A stretch of DNA of 35,887 nucleotides, from positions 1 to 35,887 of the forward strand of contig JAEMQF010000105.1 in NCBI GenBank assembly GCA_022758925.1, read 5' to 3'. A program made the position numbers and the translations under genes. The DNA comes from Burkholderiales bacterium. GTDB taxonomy: Bacteria; Pseudomonadota; Gammaproteobacteria; Burkholderiales; Burkholderiaceae_C. Under the pieces are notes generated by a model that saw only the letters and a program-made list of their open reading frames with translations, was not told the DNA's origin and did not search any database. Shown one piece after another: positions 8,267-14,641 of the stretch (its first letter is position 1; every line of letters begins with the position of its first letter).

Positions 8267-9808
8267 TCAAGCAAACCGGCCTTGCAAAAACCAGCCCTGC
8301 GCCCCCGCAGACAGCGGTAAACGTGTCCGATAAATCCAGAGCAAGGCACCGTCCAGCGCTTGCGCGATGAAGTAATCGCGCTCGGCAAGGCCGGCGTCCC
8401 ACCAGCCGGCCTCGATGCGCTCAGGGCCGCTCAGCAACTGCAGCGCCCGGCCTTCGAACCAGGGACGCGATTGGCGTTCGGGCAATGGCTCGGGCTCGGG
8501 CAACAGCCACACCGGGCGCGGTGCGATGTGTGGGCTCGAACGCGACGCAAGCCCTTTATGACCGAGTCTTTGACCGAGCTTGACCGACAGCGCCGTATCG
8601 GCATGTACAGCCTGCGCCGGGCTGCCCCGCTCGGGCCGGTGGTCATGCACCAACACCAAACGCTGCACCTGCTCGTTGCCCAGGCGCGCCTGCAGCCGTT
8701 CGATCAAGCGGGTCAAGCCCTCGGCTTCACTGCCAGGCGTGGGGAACAACTCGCTGTTCGGCGGCGCGCGGTGCACGATTTCATCGGCACACAGGTGCAA
8801 TTCGAATGTGGGCGCGCTCAATGGCAACCGCGCCAGGCGTTCGCGCAGCAACACCAGCAAATGGGCCGGGTCGCGTGAAGGCTCGGCCAGAGCAATGTTC
8901 AACGATGTTGGCGTTGCTGTATCGCTGTGACGCCGTGCTTCATGCTGCATCGCCAGCGTGAAGCGGCGCACCTGGGCGTGTTGCGCGGCCAACCATGCAA
9001 CCAGGCGTGCCAGCAGCACCGTCGCCCCTTGCAAGACCTGCTCGGTGGTGTCGGCGCGAGCAAACAACTCGGCGCGGCTTTCGAACCGATCCGGCAAGAC
9101 GATCACTTCGCGCGGATCGGGCTGATCCCCGCGCGCGCGGTCGAGTTCGCTGAGCAAGGCCTCGCCGAAACGGCGGGCGATGCCGGCACGCGGCAGGCGC
9201 CGCAGGTCGGCCAGCGTGCGCAGCCCCATGCCTTGCAAAGCCTCCCAATGTTCGCGCCCCGGGCCGAGCAGCCACACCGGGGCAGCATCCAGCGCTGCAT
9301 GCAATGCAGCGAGATCGGGGCACCGCAGCTGCTGATGCAAGCGCGCCAGCAAGGCTGCGCCCATCGCGGTGGGGGCGTGGACGCAATGGATGCGATGGCC
9401 CAAACCGGCCAAGGCTTCATGCAGACGCGCCACCAAAGCGTCAAGGCCTCCGAAGTAACGCAGGCTGCGTTGCACATCGAGTAAAACTGTTTGTGGCGCC
9501 GCTGCGTGCTCCTGCGCCGGCTGGAGCGAAACGCTCGGCGTGAACGCCAAGGCGATATGCGCGACCGCCGCCAGCGCCTGTGCGTCGCGCTGCGGGTCAG
9601 CCTGGCCGAGGACAAGGTGCGGCGCGAGCGCTAGTGCCGTGGCGCGCTTCAAGCCGGGTTTGACGCCCAACGCCTGCGCTACTGGGTTGGCGTGGGCAAT
9701 GTGCTGAGCGTCGAGCAGAGCCATGGGCACGGCGTCGGCTGCACCGCAGTACGTGGCGGCGAACGATTCGAGAGAGAGCAGCGGCAGATGCAAAGCGATC
9801 CAGAGCAC
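8267..9808 (-). CDS. imuB: Y-family DNA polymerase homologue ImuB
   Basis: A 513-residue member of the DNA polymerase Y family, ImuB type. In other bacteria ImuB lacks polymerase activity and serves as a hub linking ImuA, the beta clamp and DnaE2 for SOS mutagenesis. Here the N-terminal segment 'MLWIALHLPLLSLESFAA' replaces the metal-binding acidic motif found in active Y-polymerases, in line with a dead palm domain. 'LLDVQRSLRYFGG' and the helix-hairpin-helix region 'LQGMGLRTLADLRRLPRAGIARRFG' are typical. Start is GTG at 9808, 41 bases after imuA. Probably expressed from the LexA-controlled imuA promoter. The expected third gene, dnaE2, does not follow. Confidence 0.9.
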   Translation of the reverse strand: MLWIALHLPLLSLESFAATYCGAADAVPMALLDAQHIAHANPVAQALGVKPGLKRATALALAPHLVLGQADPQRDAQALAAVAHIALAFTPSVSLQPAQEHAAAPQTVLLDVQRSLRYFGGLDALVARLHEALAGLGHRIHCVHAPTAMGAALLARLHQQLRCPDLAALHAALDAAPVWLLGPGREHWEALQGMGLRTLADLRRLPRAGIARRFGEALLSELDRARGDQPDPREVIVLPDRFESRAELFARADTTEQVLQGATVLLARLVAWLAAQHAQVRRFTLAMQHEARRHSDTATPTSLNIALAEPSRDPAHLLVLLRERLARLPLSAPTFELHLCADEIVHRAPPNSELFPTPGSEAEGLTRLIERLQARLGNEQVQRLVLVHDHRPERGSPAQAVHADTALSVKLGQRLGHKGLASRSSPHIAPRPVWLLPEPEPLPERQSRPWFEGRALQLLSGPERIEAGWWDAGLAERDYFIAQALDGALLWIYRTRLPLSAGAQGWFLQGRFA

Positions 9809-9849
9809 GGAAAAGACTCGATGAAGAAACGGTGTTGCTCACGGATCGG

Positions 9850-10686
9850 TCAGGCCAGATTGACGAAGGTCGCGGCGTGCAACATGGGCATCTGCGCCGC
9901 GCCAGCGTGTACCCGCTGGCGCGCACTGCGGCATAACACAGGTGGCAGTGCCAGTTGCAGCGAAGCTTCCAGCGGCGGACCGCGGCGCTTGAGCACACGC
10001 AGCGCCAGCACATCGGCCCCGCCCGGGCGCAACGCCAGGCGCAGGGGTGCAGCACTGGGGTGCTGCGCAGCAGCCATTTCACGCAATACGAACGCCACCC
10101 CGTCGTGCGCATGGGCCGCGAGTTGCAGGCGGCGCAGACACTCGGTACGCAGGCGTGGCGGCAACCACGCCAATACCGCCCCTACATGCCCGCTTTTGAG
10201 GGCCTGCTCCAAGGCCCACAGGCGAGCCCTCGTCCGCGTTTCGTCAGTCTCCCGTGCAGCAACACGCATTTCCTCAATCTGAGCGGGCCCGGCCCGGGTG
10301 ACCACGATCAGCAATTGCTCCACCTCCAGCCCGAGCTGTGCCAGGGCCCAACCGGAAAGCGCAGCGGGTGGATCGAACAGCATCACCGGCCGGCCACTGC
10401 GCTGCGTGGCGCGCAGGCAATGGCTCAGGAAACGAATCTCGCCAATCCCAGGGTGCGGCAGCAGCAATTCGGTGAGCGAGCGGCGCGGCCAGCCGCCACC
10501 GGGCAGTTGCGCATCGAGCGCCGCGAAACCGCTTGGCAAGCCATGCTCGGCGTGGCGCCCGAATTGGTGGCCGCGCCACAGGTCGGGGTGCAAGGTCTCA
10601 GGAGAAAACGCATGACGCATCACAGGGCTGCCGCCCCGCACTGGCGCAGAACTCAATACAGCAGCAGCGGCGGATAGGGTGTCCAT
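9850..10686 (-). CDS. imuA: Translesion synthesis-associated protein ImuA
   Basis: A RecA/SulA-like ImuA protein, up to 278 residues, part of the SOS-inducible mutasome together with ImuB. Visible features: 'LHPDLWRGHQFG' followed by 'LPSGFAALDAQLPGGGWPRRSLTELLL' in two adjoining stretches, which is the RecA-like start of the domain, and later 'VEQLLIVV' and 'LWALEQALKSGHVGAVLAWL'. The Walker A motif of RecA is not preserved, as usual in ImuA. The ATG at 10686 is only 7 bases from the LexA box, leaving little room for a leader or ribosome-binding site. The internal ATG at 10620 ('MRHAFSPETLHP', 256 residues) is an equally good or better start. imuB follows after 41 bases. Confidence 0.88.
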   Translation of the reverse strand: MDTLSAAAAVLSSAPVRGGSPVMRHAFSPETLHPDLWRGHQFGRHAEHGLPSGFAALDAQLPGGGWPRRSLTELLLPHPGIGEIRFLSHCLRATQRSGRPVMLFDPPAALSGWALAQLGLEVEQLLIVVTRAGPAQIEEMRVAARETDETRTRARLWALEQALKSGHVGAVLAWLPPRLRTECLRRLQLAAHAHDGVAFVLREMAAAQHPSAAPLRLALRPGGADVLALRVLKRRGPPLEASLQLALPPVLCRSARQRVHAGAAQMPMLHAATFVNLA

Positions 10687-11128: not shown

Positions 11129-11707
11129 CTAGCGCAGATCGCCCGCCAGGCTCGCCAGCGTTTCCGCGGCAATCGTCACATGCGCCGGATAGTTGACGTG
11201 GTCGCAGCCGAGCTTGACGCCGGCACCGGCACGAACCGCTTCGCGCATTGCCTTGGAGAATTCGAAGCGCAGGAAATGCACGGCGGAGGTCTTCTCGTCG
11301 GTTTCGCGGTCCAGATCCTCATCGGCGATTGCATAGGCACGGCCATGCCCCTCGACTTCGACGAACATCCGGTCTTCGACGCCGATCAATCGAGCCAGCT
11401 CGCGCCTGCGCTCCGCAACGTCGGGGTACTCGATGAGCATCGTTGCTTTCCAATTGCTTCCGTCCGGCACCAAGGCGGCGTAAGCGTCGATCTCGTCTTG
11501 AATGCCCTGCTCTTCGAAGATCTTTTCGATGTGCAGCATTTCCTGGATTTGGCGGCGGATTGTGCGTTCATCTTCGAATTGAACGCTCACATGTTCGCCC
11601 AGATGAACGGTCCGCAGCCTGCGATGCGCGATCATTTCCGCGCTCGAGGACTTGCGAATCTTGGCGTACGCCTCCAGGCCGATGAGGCTGTCGCGGGTGA
11701 TGGTCAT
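11129..11707 (-). CDS. DUF3501 family protein
   Basis: A 192-residue soluble protein recognisable as DUF3501: 'MTITRDSLIGLEAYAKIRKSSSAEMIAHRRLRTVHLGEHV' (in parts), 'FEDERTIRRQIQEMLHIEKI', and the C-terminal half 'VHFLRFEFSKAMREAVRAG' and 'HVNYPAHVTI'. The biochemical role of the family is not established. The start at 11707 falls 5 bases after the stop of the Fe-S gene, so the two are translationally linked. Genes of this family are commonly found next to CCG-domain Fe-S proteins and rubrerythrins, as here, which hints at a role in peroxide or oxidative stress defence or in Fe-S redox chemistry. It contains only one obvious Cys ('LGCDHVNYP'), so it is unlikely to bind a cluster by itself. 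Confidence 0.88.
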   Translation of the reverse strand: MTITRDSLIGLEAYAKIRKSSSAEMIAHRRLRTVHLGEHVSVQFEDERTIRRQIQEMLHIEKIFEEQGIQDEIDAYAALVPDGSNWKATMLIEYPDVAERRRELARLIGVEDRMFVEVEGHGRAYAIADEDLDRETDEKTSAVHFLRFEFSKAMREAVRAGAGVKLGCDHVNYPAHVTIAAETLASLAGDLR

Positions 11708-11712
11708 CGCGC

Positions 11713-13065
11713 TCACTCCAATCCATAGGCAATTCGAAGCAGGCTCAGCGGGTGCTCGAGCCTGGCGGCAGGAGAGCCCGCGTTTAGCATGCCCTGCGCG
11801 ATGTGGTGCCCGGCGAGCGCGCAGTCGGAACTGATGTAGTCCGGTTCGTCTTTGGCCATCGCTTGGAACACAGGCTTTCCGATCCTCATGGCTGACTCGT
11901 GATAGTCCTTCTTCACGCCGTAGGTGCCAGCGTGACCAGAACACCGCTCCACCGTAGTCAGTTGCACCGGCACCGACTTTCCGATCAGTTGCAAGAGCTC
12001 CTGCGTCTTCTTGCCAATGTTTTGCACCCGGCCGTGACAGGGGATGTGATAGCTGACCTTGCCCAAAGGCTGTTTGAAGTCAGTTTTCAGCATCCCGTCC
12101 TTGTGGCGCGCGACGAAGTATTCAAAGGGGTCGAACATCGCCTGCTGCACCAGGCGCACCTCCGGATCTTCGGGGAACAGCAGCGGCAGCTCTTGCTTGA
12201 ACATCAAGGTGCAGGTCGGAATCGCCGACACGATGGCGTAACCCTCGCGCGCGTACTTCGCGAGCATGGGAATGTTCACGCTCTTGTGGCGCTCTACGCC
12301 TTCGAGATCGCCCAGCTCCAACTTGGGCATGCCACAGCAGCTCTCTTTCTCGACGATCACATACGGAATCGCGTTGTGCTCGAGCGATTTCAGCAGGTCG
12401 TGGCCGATACCGGGCTCGTTGTAGTTGACGTAGCAAGTGGCAAAAATCGCGACCTTGCCCGGGCTGCGCTCACCGTCGACAACCGTCGTCGCTTTGCCCG
12501 CCTTGGCCGCACTCCAGCGAAAGCGTTGCGTGGCGAGTTCGGGCATCCATGCGTCGCGGTGCACGCCGAGCGCCTTTTCCATCAGTTTGCGCGCGGGCTT
12601 TGTCTTGTTGATCGCATTCACCGCCTGCACCACGATCGGAATGCCGGCAAACTGGCCGTGCGCGTCGGTCGAGGCCAGAAACCTTTCGCCGGCGCTGACC
12701 TTGCCCGCCTTGTGCTTGATCGCCTTGGCGCGCAACATCAGGTGTGGGAAATCCAGATTCCACGGGTGCGGCGGAACATATGGGCACTTTGTCATGTAGC
12801 ACAGGTCGCACAGATAACACTGGTCCACGACGTTCCAGTACGCCTTCTTCGCCACGCCGTGCACCTCACCGTCTTGCGTCGCATCGACCAGATCGAACAG
12901 AGTCGGGAAAGCGCGGCACAGGCTGACGCAACGCCGGCAGCCATGGCACACGTCGAACACGCGCTCCATTTCCTTGAACGCGGCGGCTTCGTCGTAGAAG
13001 GCCGGATTCTTCCAGTCGACCGGGTGCCGTGTCGGCGCGTCGAGGTTGCCTTCTCGATTGCTCAT
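11713..13065 (-). CDS. Fe-S oxidoreductase with CCG domains (GlpC/HdrB-like)
   Basis: A 450-residue iron-sulfur protein. Two ferredoxin-type cluster motifs are present: C40-x2-C43-x2-C46-x3-C50 ('CHGCRRCVSLC') and C83-x2-C86-x2-C89-x4-C94 ('CYLCDLCYMTKCP'). They are followed by two cysteine-rich CCG-type domains of the HdrB/GlpC family: 'FATCYVNYNEPG' with 'ESCCGMP', and 'IPCHGRVQNIG' with 'VERCSGHAG' (the second CCG is changed to C-S-G). Such proteins pass electrons between flavoproteins or quinones and thiol/disulfide chemistry. No membrane anchor is visible, so it is probably cytoplasmic. The ATG at 13065 is chosen; a TTG at 13083 would add six residues. It is in an operon between rubrerythrin (115 bases upstream) and DUF3501. 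Confidence 0.9.
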   Translation of the reverse strand: MSNREGNLDAPTRHPVDWKNPAFYDEAAAFKEMERVFDVCHGCRRCVSLCRAFPTLFDLVDATQDGEVHGVAKKAYWNVVDQCYLCDLCYMTKCPYVPPHPWNLDFPHLMLRAKAIKHKAGKVSAGERFLASTDAHGQFAGIPIVVQAVNAINKTKPARKLMEKALGVHRDAWMPELATQRFRWSAAKAGKATTVVDGERSPGKVAIFATCYVNYNEPGIGHDLLKSLEHNAIPYVIVEKESCCGMPKLELGDLEGVERHKSVNIPMLAKYAREGYAIVSAIPTCTLMFKQELPLLFPEDPEVRLVQQAMFDPFEYFVARHKDGMLKTDFKQPLGKVSYHIPCHGRVQNIGKKTQELLQLIGKSVPVQLTTVERCSGHAGTYGVKKDYHESAMRIGKPVFQAMAKDEPDYISSDCALAGHHIAQGMLNAGSPAARLEHPLSLLRIAYGLE

Positions 13066-13086
13066 GGTGTGCGGTTGTTCCAATGA

Positions 13087-13109
13087 ACAAGGGGCGCGAG
13101 GCCCCTTGT
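13087..13109 (-). other. Inverted repeat between rubrerythrin and Fe-S genes
   Basis: A perfect 9-base stem, ACAAGGGGC (13087-13095) and GCCCCTTGT (13101-13109), with loop GCGAG. In the minus-strand transcript it lies just before the Fe-S start codon and is followed by TTCATT, so it could act as a partial terminator, an mRNA-stabilising stem or a translation switch. Two further stems lie at 13153-13168 (AGGCCC/GGGCCT) and 13173-13195 (GCGCTGGCT/AGCCAGCGC, overlapping the rubrerythrin stop). Confidence 0.6.
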
Positions 13110-13180
13110 CGGTTAGCGTTGTACTGCTTCAGGCGGGCCAGGCCAGCCACGCAGGCCCTTGCGGGCCTTGGTGCGCTGGC

Positions 13181-13600
13181 TCAGTCAGCCAGCGCGTCAA
13201 GTGCCTTCTGGTAGCGGTTGGCGTGTGAGCGCTCCGCCTTGGCCAGGGTTTCGAACCAATCGGCGATTTCGCCGAAGCCTTCGCTGCGCGCCTGCTTGGC
13301 CATGCCAGGGTACATGTCGGTGTACTCGTGGGTCTCGCCGGCCACGGCGGCTTTCAGGTTCTGCCGTGTCGAGCCGATCGGCAACCCGGTCGCGGGGTCA
13401 CCCGTCGCCTCGAGGAACTCAAGGTGTCCGTGCGCATGTCCGGTTTCACCTTCGGCGGTGGAACGAAACAGCGCCGAAACATCGTTCTGGCCTTCGATGT
13501 CGGCCTTGTTTGCGAAGTACAGATAGCGGCGATTCGCCTGCGATTCGCCGGCGAAAGCGTCTTTCAGGTTCTGCTCGGTTTTCGACCCTTTCAAGCCCAT
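13181..13600 (-). CDS. Rubrerythrin family diiron protein
   Basis: A 139-residue ferritin-like protein of the rubrerythrin family, which usually reduces hydrogen peroxide at a non-haem diiron site. The four-helix pattern with iron ligands is clear: '[11 protein letters not shown]' (Glu), '[15 protein letters not shown]' (Glu and His), '[12 protein letters not shown]' (two Glu) and '[16 protein letters not shown]' (Glu and His). It lacks the C-terminal rubredoxin domain of classical rubrerythrin, so its electrons must come from a separate donor. The Fe-S protein encoded next is the obvious candidate. Start: of two ATGs (13606, 13600) the second is chosen, because the AGGAG box is at correct distance from it and abuts the first. 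Confidence 0.93.
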
Positions 13601-13774
13601 GTTCATCTCCTGCTGTTGAAACACTCTGGAATCGCCCGCTTGACAGGCGCTGTGCGCTGCCCCGCAGACCCGTCGCGCAGACTACTGCACCGCGCAGCAT
13701 CGCGCCAATTCAAATCGACAATTCGCACCATCGGCAAAAGCAATGGGACAGCTCAGCGTGCTGCCGCCCGGCGC

Positions 13775-14641
13775 TCAGCCTTGCGCCGGCCCCGCAATCC
13801 CGAGCAACTGCAGCGCCAGCTCGTGCAGCCGACCTTTAGAGTCGGCAAAATCGTGGAGTATCGTCAAGTGGTTCGTCGCGGGGATGCGCTCACACACCGG
13901 GACGGTCTGCGCACCCCAACGGTTGCGGATCAAGTCGTTCTGACGCAGAAATTCGGTGCTTTCGTCGGCGCCAACCGCAGCATGCAGCACGCCTGCGGGC
14001 CGGGGAAAGTTCGCCGGACTGAGCCTCCACGCAGATTCGCGGGTCAAGCGCAAGTCGTTCATCAGGAACGGCGTGTGCCGCAAGGGCTCGAGGTCGAACA
14101 GGCCGGAAATCGACATTGCAGACGACACCAGGCCGGCGGGCAAGTCGCCTGCCACCTCGGGCCACAAACAGCTCAACATCATCGCCGCGAGGTGCCCACC
14201 TGCCGAATGACCAGCGACGACGATCCGGTTCCGGTCGGCACCGTACGACCCAGCATTGCGGTACACCCACTGCATCGCCTGCACCATCTGCAGCACGATT
14301 TGATCAATCGTCACAGCCGGGCACAGCGCGTAGTTCGGGACCACGACCATGGCCCCGTCTTGAACGAAGGACGGAGCGACGAATGAGACATCGCGCTTGT
14401 CGAGCGAGCGCCAGTAGCCGCCGTGGATGAACACGAGCACGGGTGCGTTTTGCAGGCGCGGCACAAAGACGTCGAGCGTGTCGTTGGGCCCTCTTGCATA
14501 GCGAAGATCGATTTGGCAGACGGATTTTTCACGCGCCAGCGCCGAAGCGCGAGACCAGCGATCGAAAATTTCCGGATGCTCGGGAATGAGGGCGCGATTG
14601 TTGTATTGACGGTCAAGCCAATCGGGGTCGAGTGAGGTCAT
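13775..14641 (-). CDS. Alpha/beta hydrolase (kynurenine formamidase/esterase-like)
   Basis: A 288-residue alpha/beta-hydrolase fold enzyme. The oxyanion motif 'VFIHGGYWRSLDK' (H-G-G type) and the nucleophile elbow 'VVAGHSAGGHLAAMM' (G-x-S-x-G) are the signature of the HSL/kynurenine formamidase-like esterase group, and the late 'ATNHLTILHDFAD' supplies the catalytic His. The N-terminus 'DPDWLDRQYNNRALIPEHPE' is typical of proteins annotated as alpha/beta hydrolase or arylformamidase in Burkholderiales. No kynureninase or tryptophan dioxygenase gene is in view, so the substrate is left open. ATG 14641; no operon partner on the same strand nearby except rubrerythrin downstream, separated by 174 bases. 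Confidence 0.88.
   Translation of the reverse strand: MTSLDPDWLDRQYNNRALIPEHPEIFDRWSRASALAREKSVCQIDLRYARGPNDTLDVFVPRLQNAPVLVFIHGGYWRSLDKRDVSFVAPSFVQDGAMVVVPNYALCPAVTIDQIVLQMVQAMQWVYRNAGSYGADRNRIVVAGHSAGGHLAAMMLSCLWPEVAGDLPAGLVSSAMSISGLFDLEPLRHTPFLMNDLRLTRESAWRLSPANFPRPAGVLHAAVGADESTEFLRQNDLIRNRWGAQTVPVCERIPATNHLTILHDFADSKGRLHELALQLLGIAGPAQG

Follow-up and report, generated by a model that had tools for sequence, protein, structure and literature searches.

A rubrerythrin–RFO–DUF3501 gene trio in a Burkholderiales genome is an ordinary copy of a published module, with candidate OxyR-type control

Gene content of the locus and relation to the published module

We analyzed a 35,887-nucleotide stretch of DNA from a Burkholderiales bacterium (GenBank assembly GCA_022758925.1, contig JAEMQF010000105.1, positions 1 to 35,887 of the forward strand; hereafter the window), in which genes for a rubrerythrin (RBR), an iron–sulfur (Fe–S) protein (RFO) and a DUF3501 protein follow one another along the minus strand, with gaps of 115 bases between RBR and RFO and 5 bases between RFO and DUF3501 (Table 1). 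The RBR translation matched PF02915 (1.4e-28, residues 13–135 of 141), with a weaker overlapping match to Ferritin (PF00210), and the Pfam scan matched no rubredoxin domain in it; an in-frame ATG at 13606, two codons before the likely start, is an alternative start. RFO matched the CCG family PF02754 in two stretches (1.7e-16), and DUF3501 matched PF12007 (1e-73). An initial annotation made from the letters of the sequence had proposed these genes, their order, spacing and domain content. The open frames and Pfam matches agree with it throughout: a rubredoxin-less rubrerythrin, an Fe–S protein with two cluster motifs and CCG domains (PF02754, with the cysteine motifs in frame), and a third gene beginning 5 bases after the second (11707 against 11713).

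Table 1. Features of the trio and of its control and spacer regions (positions in the window)
Feature	Positions	Strand	Remarks
RBR	13181..13600	minus	likely ATG 13600, stop ends 13181, 139 amino acids (aa), AGGAG just 5'
RFO	11713..13065	minus	ATG 13065, stop ends 11713, 450 aa
DUF3501	11129..11707	minus	ATG 11707, stop ends 11129, 192 aa
OxyR-type tetrad ATTG-N7-CGAT-N7-ATTG-N7-GAAT	13708..13744	minus	11/16 letters, in register with the stronger sites of relatives
Possible promoter TTGGCG - 18 - TAGTCT	13679..13708	minus	just downstream of the tetrad; picked by eye from conserved blocks
RBR–RFO spacer with strong stem-loop ACAAGGGGC/GCCCCUUGU	13066..13180	minus	z -2.78

The trio is an ordinary copy of the aerobic-type rubrerythrin module published by Cardenas, Quatrini and Holmes in 2016 (PMC5114695; here and below, the literature is represented by excerpts of the papers cited). 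That work reported RBR, RFO and DUF3501 genes as co-localized, with all three in 185 genomes, described RFO as a COG0247 protein with a CCG domain, and proposed that it compensates for the lost rubredoxin domain. The suggestion in the initial annotation that the system was undescribed thus had to be given up, as both the trio and the idea that RFO replaces rubredoxin were already in print. The same paper left open how aerobic-type rubrerythrins without RFO are re-reduced, assigned no role to DUF3501, and noted DUF3501–RFO fusions from Nitrosomonas. The module has since been taken up in studies of the Andalucia mitochondrial proteome (PMC7050145), a hot-spring network (PMC7852563) and Acidihalobacter (PMC7760498). 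The first of these predicted the trio in the mitochondria of several protists, so that the route by which RBR receives its electrons would bear on early mitochondrial peroxide defense. In make-up the window copy does not differ from the published module: it has the same three families, co-localized, and combines a rubredoxin-less RBR with intact ligands, an adjacent CCG Fe–S protein, an adjacent DUF3501 and co-occurrence across genomes. What the comparison adds are three leads, namely upstream operators, a residue change in the second CCG domain (CCG2) of RFO, and phage-borne gene pairs; the latter two met with no mention in the excerpts of the module literature, PMC5114695 included.

Conservation and co-occurrence of the three genes

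The seven metal ligands of RBR (E21, E54, H57, E91, E94, E125 and H128, counting from the ATG at 13606) are kept in 115/115 compared sequences. The nearest solved structures are those of Burkholderia pseudomallei rubrerythrin (E 7.5e-77; 4di0, 8fuh, 9onm) and of sulerythrin from Sulfolobus tokodaii (E about 1e-50; 1j30 and others), which have the same length and ligands and differ from the window protein only by sequence divergence. RBR is far more conserved than its two neighbors: identity to the window copy is 78–92% in the other 16 genomes with the triad, compared with 36–79% for RFO (14 of these 16) and 35–84% for DUF3501 (16/16).

Co-occurrence was assessed in 299 genomes drawn from the window's phylum, Pseudomonadota, and the RFO counts hold for that phylum only. 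DUF3501 was found in 17/299 genomes. With profiles, 17 genomes have RFO at 683 bits or more (next best match, 186), and 17 have RBR at or above 273 bits, followed by one genome at 178, with the remaining listed matches no higher than 116; the three sets are the identical 17 genomes. Since the profiles (15 rows for RFO, 21 for RBR) were built largely from triad genomes, 15 of the 17 being represented in the RFO profile and all 17 in the DUF3501 alignment, the high scores arise by construction, whereas the wide gap below them does not. The intermediate RBR (G247:C4:965227-965625, 177.9 bits) belongs to a genome without DUF3501 or an RFO-level match.

The order RBR–RFO–DUF3501 on one strand was found in all 16 fetched triad genomes and in the window. 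Named loci were surveyed as the best 80 of at least 587, mostly from Burkholderiales, with Piscinibacter and Rhizobacter as the nearest named relatives. Sixty-three of these 80 carry the triad in order on one strand (some loci end at a contig edge), 3 have RBR on the opposite strand (L073, L077, L092), 2 have RBR and DUF3501 without RFO in the fetched stretch (L078, L096), and RBR was not seen in 12; in 10 of these the locus reaches or nearly reaches a contig end, unlike L072 and L076. In the class of genome G016, taken for Alphaproteobacteria from its named relatives and IrrA, DUF3501 is present in 138/289 genomes, and all 20 loci fetched from these, representing 19 families, have the triad in order. 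A count of co-occurrence was one of the checks that the initial annotation had proposed. Its outcome, one set of 17 genomes with a single gene order, supports one functional unit, and the counts in the G016 class extend it beyond close relatives. DUF3501 also appeared in four plasmid records, all of them Burkholderia replicons of 2.4–3.5 Mb. No recurring redox partner gene was recognized by eye among the 10 frame clusters present in at least 4 of 33 loci, very long frames that overlap the triad in other frames having been ignored as GC-rich artefacts.

Operators upstream of RBR and response to peroxide

OxyR recognizes a tetrad with the consensus ATAG-N7-CTAT-N7-ATAG-N7-CTAT, and an alignment of 13 upstream regions showed a block with this geometry. 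A tetrad scoring above 11 of 16 occurs in 45 of 81 upstream regions (82 less L024, at a contig end; the loci are related and not independent events), compared with 6 of 972 dinucleotide shuffles, and in 36 of the 68 regions outside the 13 loci where the block was first seen. One strong site is that of Inhella proteolytica (L029), at 14 of 16. Spacings of 6 or 8 passed in 0/81 each; changed letters passed in 4/81 regions (2/972 shuffles), which indicates a background that is not quite even. A gene of the OxyR family lies just downstream of the triad in 2 of 33 loci (L077 and L092; searched with a short motif alone), and the L077 protein scored 269.8 bits, below the family cut-off of 329.

The G016 class shows a different type of control. 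There, a palindrome agreeing with the consensus Irr-type box at 12 or more of 14 positions occurs in 15/20 upstream regions (1/1000 shuffles; 0/20 with altered spacing), and the OxyR tetrad reaches 12 in only 1/20 (11/1000 shuffles). In 17/20 of these loci, RBR is preceded by a gene of the Fur family, and the Fur-family protein of L109 scored 211.6, above the IrrA cut-off of 150. The Irr-type pattern also passes in 6 of the 81 other regions (3/972 shuffles). At L098 and L104, TTTAGATTGATTCTAAA, a Fur-family-like palindrome (13/14), lies about 70–90 bases upstream of RBR, and no good OxyR tetrad is present. The operators thus tie the module to peroxide-responsive (OxyR) or Irr-type control according to lineage. 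As OxyR, PerR, Irr, promoter and regulator have no whole-word mention in the main text of PMC5114695, they are an addition to the 2016 description.

Expression data from a relative point in the same direction. In B. pseudomallei exposed to 100 µM H2O2, bpss1837, bpss1838 and bpss1839 rose together, with fold changes of 3.37, 3.31 and 3.36, compared with 5.90 for KatB, 4.54 for AhpC and 3.64 for KatG on the same array, values that are presumably logarithmic (PMC4175613). That study labels the three genes as hypothetical, 'ferredoxin' and rubrerythrin, respectively; from the gene order, bpss1837 would be the DUF3501 gene. The reaction of sulerythrin is fast with H2O2, whereas that with O2 is very slow (PMC12851003). 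The co-induction and the H2O2 reduction would carry over to the window copy by analogy, both having been observed in relatives only. Together with the OxyR- and Irr-type operators, they make a peroxide role of the module well supported, and the peroxide link made in the initial annotation stands.

The Irr-type boxes and the IrrA-like gene upstream of RBR in 17/20 loci of the G016 class, together with the ferritin-like fold of RBR, raise the alternative, which would account for Irr-type control in that one class, that the module mainly handles iron through ferritin-like Fe2+ oxidation and does not chiefly remove peroxide. We regard this as quite improbable, given the OxyR-type operators at other loci, the induction by H2O2 and the preference of sulerythrin for H2O2 over O2; moreover, iron storage would not be expected to involve an Fe–S reductase.

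The spacer between RBR and RFO folds into a stem-loop matched by only 1 of 200 shuffles, and 63 of 92 spacers fold with z below -2 (40 shuffles each; boundaries by tblastn hits). A terminator scan did not recognize it, finding 3 terminator-like sites where 3.1 are expected. Judged from sequence and predicted folding, the stem-loop is probably a partial terminator or an RNA-stability element that raises RBR over RFO and DUF3501.

A rebuilt second CCG domain in RFO

RFO carries two [4Fe–4S] motifs, C40/43/46/50 and C83/86/89/94. The pattern CX2CX2CX3C plus CX2CX2CX4CP is present in 87/87 full frames, and the cubane cysteines are kept in 108/108 RFO sequences, a set that includes close relatives. 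The first CCG domain (CCG1) provides C211, C243, C244 and C285; in CCG2, the corresponding region is altered and contains C343, H344, C375, S376, H378, C415, A418 and H421. GlpC served for comparison, represented by 6 of seven GlpC-like loci, all 6 confirmed as GlpC (L125 was left out because of a wrong frame). RFO and GlpC share, position by position, the eight cubane cysteines and those of CCG1. The two proteins part in CCG2. In GlpC, positions 376 and 418 are Cys, 378 is Ile and 421 is Gln (6/6); in RFO, position 376 is Ser in 103 sequences and Ala in 5, position 418 is Ala in 80, Gly in 26 and Ser in 2, and positions 378 and 421 are both His in 108/108. This loss of two Cys and gain of two His is specific to RFO against GlpC and singles out residues that may matter for RFO function.

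The HdrB-type CCG motif is CX31-39CCX35-36CXXC. RFO fails this non-cubane motif in both domains, with Met288 in place of a Cys in CCG1 and without Cys at 376 and 418 in CCG2, in 108/108 sequences. The CCG-domain fold is kept: residues 203–450 of the AlphaFold model (mean predicted local distance difference test (pLDDT) score 87.3) matched HdrB and LutA with Z 19.0–24.6. The individual matches were LutA in the LutA–LutB model 9a6l (Z 24.6, root-mean-square deviation (rmsd) 2.2, 230 aligned), HdrB in 8rvu (Z 19.4, rmsd 2.9, 237 aligned) and 5odc (Z 19.0, rmsd 2.9, 234 aligned), and, within residues 7–450, Mycobacterium smegmatis EtfD (9ojn; Z 21.9, rmsd 3.7, 367 aligned). EtfD, LutA and HdrB are 13–20% identical to RFO and have other partners. 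The CCG2 residues of RFO may come together as one metal site.

GlpC and LdhH are the best-scoring named families for RFO, which stays below both NCBIfam GlpC cut-offs (217.6 against 278 and 150.6 against 279.9). This affinity, and the loci with RBR and DUF3501 without RFO, would fit a protein that, like GlpC, serves another flavoprotein dehydrogenase and is merely co-regulated with RBR. Such a role appears highly improbable: across the 299 genomes there was no RFO-level match without DUF3501 and an aerobic-type RBR, none of the 10 recurring clusters looked flavoprotein-like (judged by first residues), and the CCG2 change sets RFO apart from GlpC.

DUF3501 and the gene pairs without RFO

The DUF3501 model (mean pLDDT 91.0) is a beta-sandwich with helices and superimposes on the crystal structure 3fjv (Z 26.1, rmsd 2.1, 189 residues, 59% identity; sequence E 5.7e-77), an entry that names no function. 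Other fold relatives are only beta-sandwich proteins at Z 7.1 and below, from which no function was drawn, and a viral library gave no match at E 0.001. Invariant residues are E45, E56, E61, E72, D131 and H170. Two other assignments were dropped: an RNA-binding protein, suggested by one weak NCBIfam match (22.8 bits, cut-off 140) without fold support, and mitochondrial ribosomal protein L10, with matches at E 0.18 or worse, which is chance level.

Several loci pair DUF3501 with RBR in the absence of an adjacent RFO. L078 (6323-7326) and L096 (6989-8017) are contigs of Burkholderiales metagenome-assembled genomes in which DUF3501 directly follows RBR. In a virus collection, RBR adjoins DUF3501 in 12/12 loci, with the seven RBR ligands intact in 12/12 sequences and RFO in none of the fetched stretches. 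A search of 10 of these 12 virus records, which may be fragments, likewise gave no RFO; it had no positive control of its own, but an RFO profile does find RFO in the window's genome. The RFO-less phage and bacterial pairs suggest RBR, and not RFO, as the more constant partner of DUF3501, and DUF3501 in turn as the closest partner of RBR.

Two of the viral loci lie in large phage records, with RFO found in neither. The pair occupies 4513-5573 of L138 (record of 399,796 bases) and 4567-5588 of L128 (record of 201,732 bases), and both records also encode a terminase, a virion structural protein, a single-strand DNA-binding protein and a UvsX-like recombinase. Of 10 virus records scanned, these 2 alone gave a terminase. 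Tail-sheath PF04984 matched in 0/10, yet PHROGs recognized a tail sheath in the larger phage record (782 bits). The remaining records may be incomplete or may not come from viruses; in that of L129, the pair sits next to a bacterial-type porin. Neither the window's triad proteins nor those of the two phages matched a PHROGs family. In collections of annotated phages, DUF3501 had no match in 50,697 records and RBR was found in 9. The cultured Pelagibacter phage Mosig EXVC030M (L192 3007-3432) encodes a rubrerythrin 72% identical to the window's, adjoining a single-strand DNA-binding gene, with no DUF3501 annotated within 3 kb. One paper mentions a viral rubrerythrin in silage; literature searches on rubrerythrin in jumbo phages or as an auxiliary metabolic gene turned up no account of the rbr–duf3501 phage pair.

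Because RBR–DUF3501 pairs exist without RFO and DUF3501–RFO fusions have been reported from Nitrosomonas, DUF3501 may be an adaptor between RBR and its reductant. A different reading, possible if doubtful, has DUF3501 load metal into the diiron site or repair it, with the electrons of RFO serving metal loading and both proteins maintaining RBR. The RFO-less pairs (L078, L096 and 12/12 viral loci) would suit such a factor, as would the invariant acidic residues and His of DUF3501, the partial and promiscuous metal occupancy of B. pseudomallei rubrerythrin, and a second fold match to the copper-resistance protein CrdA, which at Z 7.1 (rmsd 3.2, 95 residues) is at background level. It is countered by the want of a clear fold match to a metal chaperone and by the similar induction of the three B. 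pseudomallei genes by H2O2 (PMC4175613).

Proposed mechanism

We consider it probable that the window carries the published module under OxyR control, in which RBR reduces H2O2, RFO returns electrons and DUF3501 acts as adaptor or metal-site helper. H2O2 would activate OxyR, which would bind the tetrad upstream of rbr and switch on rbr–rfo–duf3501; the stem-loop after rbr would probably leave more RBR than RFO and DUF3501. Diferrous RBR would reduce H2O2 to water and become diferric, and RFO, which has no rubredoxin or flavin domain, would return electrons through its two [4Fe–4S] clusters and rebuilt CCG domain. The relatives GlpC, EtfD and LutA/B suggest that RFO itself probably draws on a flavoprotein or the quinol pool. 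DUF3501 would most likely dock RBR to its reductant, or help load or protect the metal site. For the window copy, this scheme draws on co-occurrence, operators and ligand conservation, all read from sequence.

Several observations count against the OxyR-controlled peroxidase scheme. The window tetrad is weak at 11/16, a score that 57 of 1640 shuffles reach, and it therefore leans on its register with the relatives' sites. A strict sigma-70 scan found no promoter in the window. The OxyR-like gene of the window's genome, located on another contig, scored 253.7 bits; none of the 17 triad genomes reaches the family cut-off of 329, and 5 of them had no match at E 1e-60. Expression of bpss1837–1839 is lower in a sigma E mutant (PMC4175613), which control by OxyR does not explain. 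RFO is not always needed, given the RBR–DUF3501 pairs without it at L078, L096 and 12/12 viral loci. Finally, the rubrerythrin of B. pseudomallei accepts Mn and Co as well as Fe, and its activity as an enzyme is described as still to be explored, so that a diiron peroxidase is an assumption for RBR.

GlpC keeps all five cysteines of the non-cubane site and every RFO examined has rebuilt it, which leads to a more far-reaching idea that we hold to be unlikely. CCG2 of RFO would be a new redox center, a three-Cys, two-His site docked through DUF3501, and would provide a third electron route to a diiron peroxidase, neither rubredoxin nor classical ferredoxin; large phages with rbr–duf3501 would then borrow the reductant of their host. 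The peroxide-defense interpretation of the module is sound, and the window copy is an ordinary member of the published system, of interest for the leads on operators and residues and for the phage pairs.

Neighboring genes

A frame for a putative lipoprotein of 200 aa, without NCBIfam match, recurs in 5 of 33 triad loci and directly follows DUF3501 in L079 (8585-9184). Downstream of the window's triad, ImuA (184.9 bits, cut-off 150) and a 513-aa frame that matches DNA polymerase IV only weakly (18.8 bits) lie on the minus strand at 8267-10686, possibly an imuA–imuB translesion cassette. Upstream of RBR, at 13778-14641, lies an alpha/beta-hydrolase-like gene with relatives in loci L018, L025 and L102.

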